Of a stretch of 64,000 bases of DNA, positions 12,974-18,277 are shown piece after piece. The DNA comes from Candidatus Poseidoniaceae archaeon. GTDB lineage: Archaea > Thermoplasmatota > Poseidoniia > Poseidoniales > Poseidoniaceae. The position numbers were made by a program, and so were the translations under genes. The stretch covers positions 1 to 64,000 of the forward strand of contig JAPKCS010000001.1 in NCBI GenBank assembly GCA_028822845.1. Reading direction: 5' to 3'. The notes below the pieces were generated by a model, which was given only the letters and a program-made list of their open reading frames with translations, made no database searches and was not told the DNA's origin. Within the stretch, counting starts at the first letter, position 1. Each line of letters begins with the position of its first letter.

Positions 12974-13969
12974 ATGGTTGTCCTCGTCACCGGCGCTGCT
13001 GGCTTCATCGGTTCACACGTCGTCGAACGGTTGTTGAAACAAGGCCATCAGGTCCGCGCCACAGCACGTCAAGCCGGCACTGCTCGGTTTTTGGATTCCT
13101 TTTTCTTGGCCGAAGGGGCCTCTCTTGAGATCGTTGAGATGGACTTGCTCGATGCGCCCAGTGTGGACGCTGCCGTTGCGGGTTGCACCACAGTGATCCA
13201 TTGTGCTGCAGTGCTTATGGTCGGCATCAGTGAGGTCCAACGGGATTTAATCAACCCGTCTGTGATTGGAACCAAGAATGTGTGCAGTGCTGTTGCTAAA
13301 AGTGGGACTGTGAAGACGATCATTCACACCTCTTCGGTCGCAGCAATCCGCAGCTCTGTGTACGAAAACGGCCAGGTGTTCGGCGTTGATGATTGGTGTG
13401 AAGATGCTTCGGCTGAGGTCAACCCCTACGGGTTTGCAAAAGCCGAAGGCGAGCGGGTCATGCGGTCTTTTGTTGATGGGCTCGATGCCGAAACACGACC
13501 TCGTTTGATGACCATACACCCTTCGATTGTGTTTGGCCCCATTCACCACCCGCGTCACTTGAAGGGGTCGATGGCTTACCTGAAACATTTCACCACCAAA
13601 CTCCCTTTCGTCCTGAACACTTACTTGAATTTCGTTGATGTTCGGGATGTCGCCGACGCCCACATCGCCGCCATAGAGCACGGGGAAGATGGTGGTCGGA
13701 TGGTGCTGCACACCAGAGGGATGTGGATGAAAGAGATCGGTTATGAATTGCGATCTCTAAAACCGGATGGTTCGTGGCCGGTTCGAACATTGCCAACGTG
13801 GCTCACCATCATCCTTGCAGCGTTCCATCCAAAACTTGGCGTCAAAACCGTTCGTTCAAGCCTTGGACGGTATCTGGATTATGATGTCGGCGCCAGTTTC
13901 ACCGATCTTGGACTTACACCAACCTCAACCGATGTGACATTTGTTGATGCTTTGGAATCCATCTCTTGA
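12974..13969 (+). CDS. NAD(P)-dependent epimerase/dehydratase (extended SDR)
   Basis: A 331-aa extended short-chain dehydrogenase. The nucleotide-binding motif VTGAAGFIGSH (5-15) starts the protein, and the catalytic YGFAK (Y152, K156) follows a Ser in HTSSVAAI (120 region). Its tone resembles dihydroflavonol-4-reductase/3-beta-HSD-like members that reduce ketones or epimerise sugars. It is the plus-strand gene just upstream of the ketosynthase operon but is separated from it by a terminator-like hairpin, so co-transcription is uncertain. A role in reducing a product of that operon is possible. Confidence 0.85.
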   Translation: MVVLVTGAAGFIGSHVVERLLKQGHQVRATARQAGTARFLDSFFLAEGASLEIVEMDLLDAPSVDAAVAGCTTVIHCAAVLMVGISEVQRDLINPSVIGTKNVCSAVAKSGTVKTIIHTSSVAAIRSSVYENGQVFGVDDWCEDASAEVNPYGFAKAEGERVMRSFVDGLDAETRPRLMTIHPSIVFGPIHHPRHLKGSMAYLKHFTTKLPFVLNTYLNFVDVRDVADAHIAAIEHGEDGGRMVLHTRGMWMKEIGYELRSLKPDGSWPVRTLPTWLTIILAAFHPKLGVKTVRSSLGRYLDYDVGASFTDLGLTPTSTDVTFVDALESIS

Positions 13970-13970
13970 A

Positions 13971-13998
13971 CCAAAAAGCCCTTAGGGGCTGTTTTTGG
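13971..13998 (+). terminator. Hairpin with A/T arms after the SDR gene
   Basis: CCAAAAAGCCC and GGGCTGTTTTTGG form an 11-bp stem with a two-base bulge and a TTAG loop, beginning two bases after the SDR stop codon. A second T-tract (CCTTTTTATC) follows at about 14016. It resembles an intrinsic terminator and separates the SDR gene from the lipid operon. Confidence 0.55.
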
Positions 13999-14058
13999 AC
14001 TCGCGCCGGTCCTTCCTTTTTATCGTATGAAGGTCTGAAAATAAAATAGGTGGGGCCT

Positions 14059-14634
14059 ATGGATGAAGCAACCTTGGTTTTGAATGTCATGCTCTATGTC
14101 CTTCTCCCGCTATGGGGCTTTGCCAGCATGTTGGATTGGTGGTGCCACCGAAACACCAACATCGAGGGCACTTCGGGGCTGCGGGAAGCGAACGTACACC
14201 TTCTCATGGGCGCCCAAATTGGACTCCCACTGGTGCTTTCATTGATTTTTGAAGTGAATGTTCTGGTGATGTTAATGTGCTTCGCCGCCCTTATTGCACA
14301 CGAGTTTATCGCCCATTACGACGTGCATTTCACCACTGGAAAGCGCGAGATCAGCATCTGGGAAGTTCATGCGCACAACTACCTCGCAACCCTTCCGTTT
14401 TTCCTCCTATTGCTGATCATTGTCCGAAAATGGGAGGTCTTTGTCAATACGGTCACCTTGAATTGGAGCGGTCAATTTAGCCTCGAATGGCGCCAAGAAC
14501 CGTTGGGCGCATCTGGAAACTATGCTGCCCTCTACATGGCCACAATGGGCCTGCTTGTCGTTGGGCCATACTTCCAAGAGTGGTGGCGTTGCTACACATA
14601 CGAGAAAAGAAACCGGGGCGAGGTGGAGTCATGA
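14059..14634 (+). CDS. His-rich polytopic membrane protein, first gene of lipid-type operon
   Basis: A 191-aa protein from the ATG at 14059, which follows AGGTGGGGCCT. Four to five hydrophobic helices carry conserved-looking His clusters: DWWCHRNTNIEGTSG, REANVHLL, AHEFIAHYDVHF and WEVHAHNYL. This resembles a widespread but poorly characterised bacterial membrane family with DWxxHR, IExTSG and HExxAxxD motifs; I know no established function. The His spacing recalls metal-dependent membrane hydroxylases without matching their boxes exactly. Its stop overlaps the ketosynthase start as ATGA, so the two are translationally coupled. Confidence 0.75.
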   Translation: MDEATLVLNVMLYVLLPLWGFASMLDWWCHRNTNIEGTSGLREANVHLLMGAQIGLPLVLSLIFEVNVLVMLMCFAALIAHEFIAHYDVHFTTGKREISIWEVHAHNYLATLPFFLLLLIIVRKWEVFVNTVTLNWSGQFSLEWRQEPLGASGNYAALYMATMGLLVVGPYFQEWWRCYTYEKRNRGEVES

Positions 14635-15767
14635 GCGTCTACATCACCAGCACGGGTGCTTTTTTGCCAGGACCCCCGATCGCCATCGAGGAAGTAGAGG
14701 GTGTGCTTGGAGCAGTGAATGGGAAGCCCTCGTCGCTCCGAGTCCAAATCCAGAAAGCGAACAAAATTCAAACCAGACACTATGCCATTGACGCAAACCA
14801 GCAAACAACCCATAGCAACACAGAGATGGCAGCCAATGCAGCCTCTCAATGCCTTGACCGGGCGTTTGTAGCGAAAGAAAACGTTGGTATGTTGGCGGTT
14901 GCCACAACCCAAGGGGACCTTCCTGCACCAGGTATGGCGAGCATGGTTCAAGCCGAACTCGGATTGGCCGAACTTGAAATTTTAACGACCCATGGGATCT
15001 GTTCCTCATCGATGATGGCGCTCAAAGCAGCGTGGAACAGCCTGCGCCTCGATGAGCATGAGGCGGCCCTCGTGGTCTCGAGCGAATTGGCCAGCCGTTT
15101 ACTCAAGAAACAACGGTATGAGGCGGCAACAAAATCAACGTTTGCCGAAAAACGAATCGATTTCAACACCGAATTCCTTCGATGGATGCTCTCTGACGGT
15201 GCTGGCGCTTTGTTGTTGCAAAATAAGCCCGCACCGAAGGGCATGAGTTTGCGCATTGATTGGATGAGAGGGTTCTCTCACGCCCACGCCTTCCCAACAT
15301 GCATGAGCGTTGGATCCGCTGGACGGGTTGAAGACGCCCGCACCTGGCAAGATTACGACAGTTATGCGGAGGCCGAAATTGACGGAGCCTTACTGCTGCG
15401 TCAAGATGTTCGATTGTTGGATAACATCCTGCGCATGGGTGTTGATGGCTACTTGCGGCTGGTGCAAGAGGGTGTCTCAAAACCCTTGGACGTTGACCAT
15501 TTTTTGTGCCATTACTCGAGCCATCATTTCCGAGATAAAATATTAGATTTACTCGATGCTGCTGGCGTCGGCATTCCTGAAGAGCGGTGGTGGACCAACC
15601 TTTACACGCGTGGAAACACGGGTGCTGCTTCGTTGTTCATCATGCTGGATGAGTTCCTCCGAACCGATGAAATTGAAGTCAAAGAAGGTGAAAAAATTCT
15701 ATGCTTTGTTCCTGAAAGTGGGCGTTTCAACACGACCTACATGCAACTCACGGTGGTGAAAGGATGA
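14631..15767 (+). CDS. StlD/DarB-like beta-ketoacyl synthase (KAS III fold)
   Basis: A 378-aa thiolase-fold enzyme; start ATG at 14631 after GAGGTGGAGTC. The catalytic Cys is C124 in THGICSSSMMAL. CHYSS (H294) replaces the FabH HQAN motif, and N329 lies in YTRGNTGAASL. The N-terminal block (INGKPS-like VNGKPSSLR, then NKIQTRHYAID and THSNTEMAANA) is the feature that points to the StlD/DarB group. That group condenses two acyl precursors during dialkylresorcinol biosynthesis and related pathways in bacteria. An aromatic lipid product here is speculation, because no aromatase or acyl carrier protein lies beside it. The gene is coupled on both sides by ATGA overlaps. Confidence 0.85.
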   Translation: MSVYITSTGAFLPGPPIAIEEVEGVLGAVNGKPSSLRVQIQKANKIQTRHYAIDANQQTTHSNTEMAANAASQCLDRAFVAKENVGMLAVATTQGDLPAPGMASMVQAELGLAELEILTTHGICSSSMMALKAAWNSLRLDEHEAALVVSSELASRLLKKQRYEAATKSTFAEKRIDFNTEFLRWMLSDGAGALLLQNKPAPKGMSLRIDWMRGFSHAHAFPTCMSVGSAGRVEDARTWQDYDSYAEAEIDGALLLRQDVRLLDNILRMGVDGYLRLVQEGVSKPLDVDHFLCHYSSHHFRDKILDLLDAAGVGIPEERWWTNLYTRGNTGAASLFIMLDEFLRTDEIEVKEGEKILCFVPESGRFNTTYMQLTVVKG

Positions 15768-16513
15768 ATGATGGAGAGATTATGATCAAGGGCGGAACGC
15801 CTGTTGCTTCAATGGATGAAGAAATGGATAGCATGGATTTGAATCCACATGCACAAGTGTGCCTGCAACACCTTTTACGCGTTTGGCTCGGCTTTGAACG
15901 GGACCTCTCGACCGTGCCGTTGTTGCGCCGAATCGATCTTGGCACCTACACGGTTGAAGACCATCTTTGCTTGTTGCGAAACCTTCGCCAACAAGTCATT
16001 GAAGGGTCGCGCTGGATCACTCGCGCTGCCAGCAGTTTTGACCGCAATCATGCAGAAATTAGGTCAACTATCATTTCTCACGCCGTGGATGAACACCGCG
16101 ATTATGAATTGTTAGAACTGGATTACGTTGCTTCTGGTGGACACATCGAGGATGTGCAGGGCATGGAGCGAAACATCGGCTCCGAAGCCTTGCACGGTTA
16201 CTTGATGCACCGTTCTTCGCGCCCAAACCCAATTGATTTGCTCGGAGCAATGTGGATCATTGAGGGCCTCGGTGAGAAGATGGCTCGCTCGTGGGCTGAA
16301 CGGATTCAAGAATTGACTGGACTCTCAGAAGATTCAACTCGGTTCATGAGCTATCATGGACACAACGACAGTGAACACATGCTGCGGTTTTACGAAATGC
16401 TCGATGAAGTCTGCATCGACGAGGCTGGCGTGGCTTCGATTGTCAAAACAGCAAAGGTGGTTGCAAGGCTCTACCGTCTACAATTGGAGGAAGTACAACA
16501 TGGCCTCAAATGA
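15764..16513 (+). CDS. Haem-oxygenase-like (TenA/UndA-type) putative diiron oxidase
   Basis: A 249-aa all-helical protein resembling the iron-containing redox enzyme family with a haem-oxygenase-like fold. Candidate metal ligands are E80 (RQQVIEGSRW), H106/E110/D113 (SHAVDEHRDYELL), E167 (WIIEGLGEKMA) and the H198-H200-D202-H205 region (YHGHNDSEHML). Known relatives decarboxylate or desaturate acyl chains or oxidise nitrogen. Next to a ketosynthase and a desaturase, an acyl substrate is likely. The ATG at 15764 overlaps the upstream stop; an ATG at 15782 preceded by GGAGAG is the alternative. Substrate and cofactor are inferred. Confidence 0.75.
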   Translation: MNDGEIMIKGGTPVASMDEEMDSMDLNPHAQVCLQHLLRVWLGFERDLSTVPLLRRIDLGTYTVEDHLCLLRNLRQQVIEGSRWITRAASSFDRNHAEIRSTIISHAVDEHRDYELLELDYVASGGHIEDVQGMERNIGSEALHGYLMHRSSRPNPIDLLGAMWIIEGLGEKMARSWAERIQELTGLSEDSTRFMSYHGHNDSEHMLRFYEMLDEVCIDEAGVASIVKTAKVVARLYRLQLEEVQHGLK

Positions 16514-17420
16514 ACAAACCCTAACTCGAAAACAACGACGAAATGACCGAAAGCGCGCCAAGGCCATGGCGGCAAATCATGGCCGGATGCCAGCAACCTT
16601 GAGCGATGCTCTGGTCGGTGATGACAGTTTACCGCTCGACGCTGCAGCCAAGGAATACTGGGTCAAGGATCTGAAAAACCCGCTTCGAATCATCGTCTTA
16701 CCAACCCTTCGAATCCTGCTCACCATCACGTTGCACATCACGTATTACCTCAAACGCCTGCTGCCGATTCAGTGGAAAGCGCATGGCTTCTTGCAGTGGC
16801 AGATTTGCTTCTTCATGAAATATTTCGTTCGACCGGAAGCCAATGTACTGATCCTTCGGCATTTCCAAGCGGAAAGCAACCTGCTCAATTTCGTCATCGA
16901 TAATTCTGGGAAAAAGGACATCGCTCCGGTGCTGATCTATCCAAAGATGATTCGTGACTTGATGGTTCAGACCTTCGTTCACCACGACCAAGGTGTGCTG
17001 ATGACGATGCGGGATTTGGAACAACCTGACCGTTCCAATTGGCCGATCGACAAGAGCGATCTCGAATGGACAAACTGGAATCCAGTTCGGATCGATTACA
17101 GCGCCGAACGTAAAAAGTGGACCCAGTTCCTTGATTTCGAAACGGCTCACGAATTGTTCAAGACATCATTCTGTTTTTGGCTCACTTCAAAGGAATACGA
17201 AGCAGCGATCAATTCCTTCCAATTCGACCACTCGGTTGGCTTGCTGATCGACGACATCGTAGGAGCGGCTCACTTTGCTGACATTGCGTACAACAGATTC
17301 CCAATGATCCTCGTTGGCCCTACCGGCCTCTCATATCGTTTCTTAATGCACGGTTTCTTTGTCGAACACGTTCATGCTCACCTCGAACGCATGCGCTTGA
17401 CGGTTGGTTTGGAGAACTGA
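16500..17420 (+). CDS. Unrecognised 306-aa protein of the lipid-type operon
   Basis: No family recognised. From the ATG at 16500 (preceded by GGAGGAAGTACAAC) the protein begins with a very basic segment rich in Arg/Lys (ltrKQRRNDRKRAKAMAANHG). A hydrophobic stretch follows at about residues 62-80 (IIVLPTLRILLTITLHITYYL), then a soluble region with many aromatic residues, and a C-terminal GLIDDIVGAAHFADIAYNRFP-like segment with several His (MHGFFVEHVHAHLERM). The start overlaps the upstream gene by 14 bases, and the desaturase follows after 2 bases, so it belongs firmly to this operon. It may be a membrane-associated enzyme of the same pathway. Confidence 0.75.
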   Translation: MASNEQTLTRKQRRNDRKRAKAMAANHGRMPATLSDALVGDDSLPLDAAAKEYWVKDLKNPLRIIVLPTLRILLTITLHITYYLKRLLPIQWKAHGFLQWQICFFMKYFVRPEANVLILRHFQAESNLLNFVIDNSGKKDIAPVLIYPKMIRDLMVQTFVHHDQGVLMTMRDLEQPDRSNWPIDKSDLEWTNWNPVRIDYSAERKKWTQFLDFETAHELFKTSFCFWLTSKEYEAAINSFQFDHSVGLLIDDIVGAAHFADIAYNRFPMILVGPTGLSYRFLMHGFFVEHVHAHLERMRLTVGLEN

Positions 17421-17422
17421 GC

Positions 17423-18277
17423 ATGTTGCTTCGCCGGGCGGATTTTCTTTCGCTCACCTACATGGTCGGCTACCCTGCTTTGATTGGGTGGCAATGGGTC
17501 AACGGTGTCGAATGGTACCTGTATTTGGCCGTGCTCGTGATGTCGGTTGGGTTGTCCGTTGTTCAGCACAACCACACCCATTTGCGAATGTGGTCTTCAA
17601 AACCACTCAACCGAATCACTGACCTCTGGTTAAGCGTGCTTCAGGCCACCCCTTCGTTCGTGTTCTTCCCCTCGCACATCAGCAACCACCACCGCTACAA
17701 GCATGGCCCGGAGGATGAAACTCGAACCTACCGATTTGGCGGGCATCACAACAACATCATCGGCTACCTCTTGCACCCTTTACAAGCACTCTTTGTGCTG
17801 CCAAATACGTTGATCGCATACGCCAGAAAGCGAGCGAGCACTCGCGATTATTGGCCGCTGGTCGAACTTGGTTTGATCGCTGCTGTCTCCGTAGCGCTAG
17901 CGTGGATGGATGCGTGGCTGTGGCTTACGCTGGTGTTGGTGCCGCAATTGCACGGCCTGCATTGGTTGCTAGGCGCCAATTACCTCCAACACGCTGGAGC
18001 AGACCCTGGAACAGGCCCTGATGCTGCGACGGATGGAAGCCTGGCCTTCTCGCGTAATTTCACCGGATGGGTGAACCTTGTGTGGTTCAACATCGGATAC
18101 CACACTGCACATCATGAGAATGGCCGCACCCATTGGAGCGACCTTCCGGCCCATCACAAGGCGTACGTCGAGCGTGTTCCGGCTCACCTGATGGAACACA
18201 GCCTGTCGTGGTACATGATTCGAGTTCTGATTTTTGGCAAAGCAAAGAGCAGCCTTCAGGTCGCAGAAACCAGGTGA
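17423..18277 (+). CDS. Membrane fatty acid desaturase
   Basis: A 284-aa integral membrane protein with the three histidine boxes of the fatty acid desaturase/hydroxylase superfamily: HNHTH (H49-x3-H53), HISNHH (H85-x3-HH) and YHTAHH (HxxHH near residue 230). Several long hydrophobic helices lie before and between the boxes. Such enzymes use a non-haem diiron centre and O2 to introduce double bonds or hydroxyl groups into acyl or isoprenoid chains. It closes the five-gene operon begun at 14059. Its substrate could be the acyl chain assembled by the ketosynthase, or a carotenoid- or isoprenoid-like lipid. Confidence 0.88.
   Translation: MLLRRADFLSLTYMVGYPALIGWQWVNGVEWYLYLAVLVMSVGLSVVQHNHTHLRMWSSKPLNRITDLWLSVLQATPSFVFFPSHISNHHRYKHGPEDETRTYRFGGHHNNIIGYLLHPLQALFVLPNTLIAYARKRASTRDYWPLVELGLIAAVSVALAWMDAWLWLTLVLVPQLHGLHWLLGANYLQHAGADPGTGPDAATDGSLAFSRNFTGWVNLVWFNIGYHTAHHENGRTHWSDLPAHHKAYVERVPAHLMEHSLSWYMIRVLIFGKAKSSLQVAETR

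Follow-up and report, generated by a model that had tools for sequence, protein, structure and literature searches.

The 64,000-nucleotide window analysed here, from the genome of a Candidatus Poseidoniaceae archaeon (1.92 Mb, 92% complete, 0.08% contamination), encompasses five contiguous genes, denoted A to E, that occupy positions 14059-18277 on the forward strand of a 253-kb contig. Gene A (14059..14634) encodes a 191-residue helical membrane protein rich in His, Glu and Asp, a candidate membrane metallo-oxygenase suggested by the residue pattern and the structural model; the open reading frame (ORF) finder also offers a GTG start at 14050, which gives 194 residues. Gene B (14631..15767) encodes a ketosynthase (KS) of the StlD/DarB superfamily with the predicted catalytic residues Cys124, His294 and Asn329, C (15764..16513) a haem-oxygenase-like diiron oxidase (HDO), D (16500..17420) a DUF6999 protein that is the constant partner of the KS and the HDO, and E (17423..18277) an accessory membrane fatty-acid desaturase with three His boxes. 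The A/B and B/C junctions are 4-nucleotide overlaps (ATGA), C and D overlap by 14 nucleotides, and D and E are separated by 2 nucleotides. The genes lie where a preliminary description of this DNA placed them, and the close junctions bear out its view of five real, contiguous genes in an operon.

The order A-B-C-D is maintained in all 75 loci (44 from Poseidoniales and 31 bacterial) identified in one genome-wide scan, wherever the available sequence covers it, some loci being cut by the sequence end. Recurrence of this order in 75 loci from two domains of life is far beyond chance. In the 20 loci that were compared with their flanks, the four genes are adjacent and in the same order. The bacterial carriers include Rheinheimera, Arsukibacterium, Alkalimonas, Shewanella, Vibrio rumoiensis, Endozoicomonas, Reinekea, Gynuella, Cellvibrionaceae, Granulosicoccaceae and one Myxococcales metagenome-assembled genome (MAG); a Pseudoalteromonas megaplasmid, the KS of which is 58% identical, also carries A-B-C-D. 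No further neighbour common across genera was detected beside the four genes in the scanned loci. The gene order on which the preliminary description relied is thus present in related genomes, but the proposed five-gene unit is better described as a fixed four-gene core, with a fifth gene, the desaturase, that is exchangeable or missing, and the system is not peculiar to archaea but is a bacterial module that is widespread.

Among 146 Poseidoniales genomes sampled, DUF6999 is present in 24, which belong to 4 of the 21 genera and to a single family, Poseidoniaceae. The KS, searched separately, is found in exactly the same 24 genomes, in one copy each. In a sample of 243 genomes from the whole phylum, DUF6999 is confined to the same family. 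Given its restriction to a single family and to a minority of genomes, the cassette is accessory rather than part of core membrane synthesis, and it is too patchy to make the bulk membrane. A search of viral contigs detected no relative of DUF6999, so carriage by viruses is unsupported.

The nearest NCBIfam model to protein B is StlD/DarB (NF005293, E-value 7e-115), although the score of 384 bits is below the curated cut-off of 450 bits; the score with the DarB model NF053539 (332 bits) is likewise below the cut-off of 550 bits, a value that an aryl-polyene-linked KS itself misses, with only 500 bits. StlD (5gk0) is by far the best match in the PDB (E-value 4e-73), OleA is not among the significant PDB matches, and models of HMG-CoA synthase score B below 30 bits. 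All KSs compared from the module and from the fusions (described below) contain Cys124, His294, Asn329, E152 and R184, and the same residues occur in StlD and in a DarB-like reference; B also retains the FLRWMLSDG and PESxR motifs that, together with E152 and R184, distinguish StlD/DarB from FabH. Among the KSs compared, R156 is invariant solely in those of the module and the fusions. In the phylogenetic tree, the archaeal KSs form one clade (support 100/98) to which the KSs of the bacterial modules are the sister group (98/93), followed by the KS::HDO fusions (96/84); StlD, the aryl-polyene-linked DarB and the KSs of Bacteroidetes fall outside this group. B groups with StlD/DarB and is distant from FabH (99/99), but the FabH branches are very long, and the long branches of FabH, Streptomyces and one additional locus (L158) limit deep inference from the tree. 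Thus, by homology, B can be assigned to the StlD/DarB superfamily, as originally proposed, within a separate clade, and neither FabH nor HMG-CoA synthase is its closest kin.

The likeness of B to StlD, the isopropylstilbene ketosynthase of Photorhabdus, and to DarB of dialkylresorcinol synthesis extends over the full length of the proteins and includes the Cys-His-Asn triad, E152 and R184. The genomic partners of B are different, namely an HDO, DUF6999 and predicted membrane oxygenases, with no acyl carrier protein (ACP) gene in the module. No relative of the DarB-linked putative aromatase was detected in the archaeal genome, in a search for which the sole positive control was the query itself. 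One Granulosicoccaceae genome (G154) carries the A-B-C-D module and, in addition, a separate DarB-like KS that is accompanied by a flavodoxin-like putative aromatase and adjoins an aryl-polyene-like cluster (L164:7167-9284); because both are present in the same genome, the module and the aryl-polyene-linked DarB are different systems. Other StlD/DarB-type KSs were encountered in other contexts, including lone genes next to a transcription regulator, with no other pathway genes nearby, on Bacteroidetes plasmids (L162:7995-9137 and L163:7992-9128), and a KS clustered with two ACPs, FabF, FabG, a cytochrome P450 and a phosphopantetheinyl transferase (PPTase) on a Streptomyces linear plasmid (L047:4376-18282).

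Protein C matches Haem_oxygenas_2 (PF14518, E-value 1.1e-7), and its profile matches 3dde (E-value 3e-10) and MboA of mangotoxin biosynthesis (9ypi, E-value 0.002). Nine residues (E80, H106, E110, H111, E118, E167, H198, D202 and H205) are invariant in all 19 homologues, so that C is predicted to be a member of the HDO family with a full set of candidate His, Glu and Asp iron ligands. In contrast to the known HDOs, C has no close characterised relative and is fused to a ketosynthase in other bacteria.

Protein A has no match in Pfam or NCBIfam and no fold match in a structure search of the PDB. Over 32-33 homologues, six His and six acidic residues are invariant (D26, H30, E36, E43, H47, H81, E82, H86, D88, E102, H104 and H106). 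In the AlphaFold model (predicted local distance difference test score, pLDDT, of 91), these residues are located where helices 1 and 3 end and where helices 2 and 4 begin, which would place the ligand-type residues on one face of the membrane, as in other membrane diiron enzymes. In other bacterial versions of the locus, the place of A is taken by a fatty-acid hydroxylase (FA_hydroxylase, PF04116), and this replacement, along with the ligand-type residues, suggests that A is a membrane oxygenase, although its residue pattern differs from that of PF04116 and no homology between the two is detectable. Protein D, previously described as a basic protein of unknown family, belongs to DUF6999 (PF22523, E-value 3.6e-89) and is modelled as an all-helical protein (pLDDT 87). 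No significant fold match to D was found in searches of PDB or viral structures, in which the PolF hits had TM-scores of about 0.14, and comparing the profile of D with that of the HDO family gave no match. A DUF6999 protein is also present in Caulobacter vibrioides, which was included as a control genome.

Protein E is a clear member of the FA_desaturase family (PF00487, E-value 2.3e-25) with the boxes HNHTH, HISNHH and HTAHH. Of the 44 archaeal loci, 20 have an orthologue of E downstream of D, 12 have a different desaturase (E2) in that place and 8 have neither of the two; the remaining 4 loci are cut. E is 44-49% identical to the desaturase adjoining the KS::HDO fusion in five Pseudomonadota loci, and E2-like desaturases recur beside the module in Myxococcota. 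This alternation of E and E2, and their recurrence in bacteria, indicate that desaturation is a recurrent accessory step that is met by two types of desaturase.

Several bacteria possess a different architecture of the same core, namely KS, HDO and DUF6999 with a desaturase and a predicted membrane oxygenase. DUF6999 is encoded in 9 of 399 Pseudomonadota genomes, and in 6 of the 8 loci examined in this phylum (L152-L157), a KS::HDO fusion protein of about 630-655 residues is followed by DUF6999. In contrast to the archaeal loci, the KS and the HDO are fused, FA_hydroxylase replaces A, and the gene order is different, the desaturase and the hydroxylase usually preceding the fusion. In a sample of 193 genomes of the phylum of the Myxococcota reference, DUF6999 matches were found in 22, and in 21 of these the score is above the cut-off. 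The predominant Myxococcota loci consist of long ORFs that match the fusion at 36-39%, an E2-type desaturase and DUF6999; one of these ORFs has a Pfam match at 1e-10 in its KS part only. Two further Myxococcota loci contain the archaeal-type A-B-C-D genes, in one case with D on the opposite strand beside A. At yet another locus in this phylum (L188:7389-11124), the KS adjoins DUF6999, no HDO was detected, and a cytochrome P450 is encoded close by on the other strand. The KS::HDO fusion suggests that the two enzymes act on one substrate.

The cassette is found at no fewer than five sites in Poseidoniaceae genomes (at least 5), with a short-chain dehydrogenase/reductase (SDR), PolD DP2, ribonucleotide reductase, a UbiA-type protein or a P-type ATPase encoded upstream. 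Given that the archaeal KSs form a single clade with only bacterial outgroups, the simplest history would be that a bacterial module entered an ancestor of Poseidoniaceae once and was subsequently moved or lost repeatedly. The base composition of the five genes is not distinct from that of the 64-kb window and provides no signal of transfer. In the genome analysed here, the gene directly upstream of the operon (12974-13969) encodes an HpnA-like, distantly OleD-like SDR/epimerase, which is common only to genomes with the cassette at that same site. This gene was considered as an OleD-like sixth member of the operon and rejected, because it does not accompany the module elsewhere and is separated from the operon by a terminator-like hairpin on the forward strand (13977..13990, AGCCC-TTAG-GGGCT followed by GTTTTTGG). 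The hairpin is only suggestive of a terminator, and the number of hairpin-type sites around the operon does not exceed that in shuffled sequence.

The membrane lipids of Marine Group II (MGII)/Poseidoniales are an open question, and known archaeal lipids are not found where MGII dominate (PMC6962369). The enzyme making glycerol-1-phosphate is absent from all 270 MAGs of one survey, which did detect genes for glycerol-3-phosphate dehydrogenase and for the degradation of fatty acids (PMC6461757). The premise of the preliminary description that the bulk lipids of the host are isoprenoid is thus not established for Poseidoniales. No free ACP was found in the host genome at its 92% completeness; the only PP-binding domains are within a PfaA-like type I fatty-acid/polyketide megasynthase of 2,941 residues that is encoded on the forward strand outside the window (G000:C1:104736-113561, equivalent to L165:4737-13562). 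This protein has the domain order ketosynthase, acyltransferase, ACP, ACP, ketoreductase and dehydratase, its best multi-domain NCBIfam match is PfaA (838 bits, with the cut-off at 1010), and its gene is preceded by one for a FabI-like reductase and followed by one for a PPTase. The ketosynthase part is present in 90 of the 146 Poseidoniales genomes and in 15 of the 21 genera, and almost every Poseidoniaceae genome is among the 90. The megasynthase could feed the module.

Collectively, the observed gene set and order, catalytic residues, co-occurrence, gene fusion, phylogeny and variable insertion sites are most consistent with a self-contained, mobile module of bacterial origin that condenses acyl chains and oxidises the product with iron enzymes (probability roughly 0.6); the reactions, the cyclisation and the product outlined below are all predictions. 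The StlD-type KS would load an acyl thioester on Cys124 and join to it a second acyl thioester, probably a beta-keto one, possibly with closure of a cyclohexanedione-like ring in the manner of StlD. The HDO, a predicted diiron enzyme that elsewhere is part of the KS polypeptide, might then oxidise the KS-bound or freshly released product, A and the desaturase (E or E2) would act at the membrane to add oxygen to the alkyl chains or form double bonds in them, and DUF6999, the obligate partner, perhaps would contribute to product release or transfer. In the archaea, the acyl units could be supplied by the PfaA-like megasynthase or by beta-oxidation in the form of acyl-CoA. The product can with good reason be predicted to be an unsaturated or oxidised acyl-derived lipid, possibly an O2-dependent, non-isoprenoid lipid of the dialkyl type. 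Several considerations weigh against this interpretation: the module encodes neither an ACP of its own nor a release enzyme; neither A nor D is significantly similar to any PDB entry, by sequence or by fold, and the roles proposed for them are derived from context and residue pattern; and the direction of transfer depends on a single protein tree with long outgroup branches.

A plain dialkylresorcinol or cyclohexanedione pathway of the DarABC or Stl type, in which the HDO would occupy the place of the aromatase, accommodates the StlD/DarB-specific residues of the KS and the PDB search, in which StlD ranks far ahead of all other matches. Nevertheless, this appears rather unlikely, considering that the KS falls under both NCBIfam cut-offs and belongs to its own clade, apart from the aryl-polyene-linked KS of the module-bearing genome. 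The module has neither its own ACP nor a release enzyme, and neither a free ACP nor any relative of the putative aromatase linked to DarB was found in the genome; a resorcinol end product is therefore unsupported, as is the identification of the KS as a resorcinol-pathway DarB. The fusion of the KS to the HDO in other bacteria would also fit the formation of an open-chain beta-ketoacyl compound or ketone, from which the HDO would remove a carbon or which it would desaturate, yielding a ketone or alkene lipid in the manner of OleA and UndA; among known HDOs, UndA, for example, converts fatty acids to alkenes. We consider this scenario doubtful because the KS is of the StlD type, with OleA missing among its significant PDB matches, and because, unlike the OleABCD olefin pathway, the module lacks OleB and OleC, the distantly OleD-like SDR upstream not being conserved with it.

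The presence of desaturase and hydroxylase partners, and of a host megasynthase that could use a starter, might instead point to an operon for fatty-acid remodelling in which the KS substitutes for FabH in initiation or elongation and the oxidases tune membrane fluidity. This possibility is improbable given the distance of the KS from FabH in the tree, the absence of fab genes from the module and the independence of fatty-acid synthesis from it, the megasynthase being far more widespread (90/146 genomes compared to 24/146 for the module). Finally, the bacterial character of the genes might suggest contamination of an archaeal bin by a contig from a bacterium, a notion with hardly any probability left: the 44 loci come from named Poseidoniales with archaeal neighbours such as PolD DP2, which already refutes it and upholds the original assignment to an archaeal host, and the length of the contig (253 kb), the 0.08% contamination of the bin and the 100/98 support for the archaeal KS clade argue in the same direction.

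Literature searches among open-licence papers, via DUF6999, Poseidoniales with resorcinol, and MGII with polyketide synthase, recovered no description of the module. It is a real, conserved and seemingly uncharacterised lipid module of bacterial type that is present in a minority of Poseidoniaceae. We propose, much more tentatively than the condensing and oxidising module itself, that KS-HDO-DUF6999 with a membrane oxygenase represents a new class of lipid pathway in Bacteria and Poseidoniaceae which, fed by the archaeal PfaA-like synthase, would make a non-isoprenoid ring or ketone lipid, a possible O2-dependent biomarker for part of MGIIa. The module also gives context to DUF6999 and to A, a candidate new membrane metalloenzyme. 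The complete A-B-C-D set is present in cultured strains of Rheinheimera, Arsukibacterium, Alkalimonas, Shewanella and Vibrio, which makes the chemistry accessible in bacteria. MGII/Poseidoniales are among the most abundant archaea of the surface ocean. Together, the acyl-condensing KS of the module, the candidate O2-dependent iron enzymes that accompany it (three at most) and the PfaA-like synthase that most members of the family possess offer a testable route to non-isoprenoid archaeal lipids, and the PfaA-like megasynthase may bear directly on the lipids of MGII.

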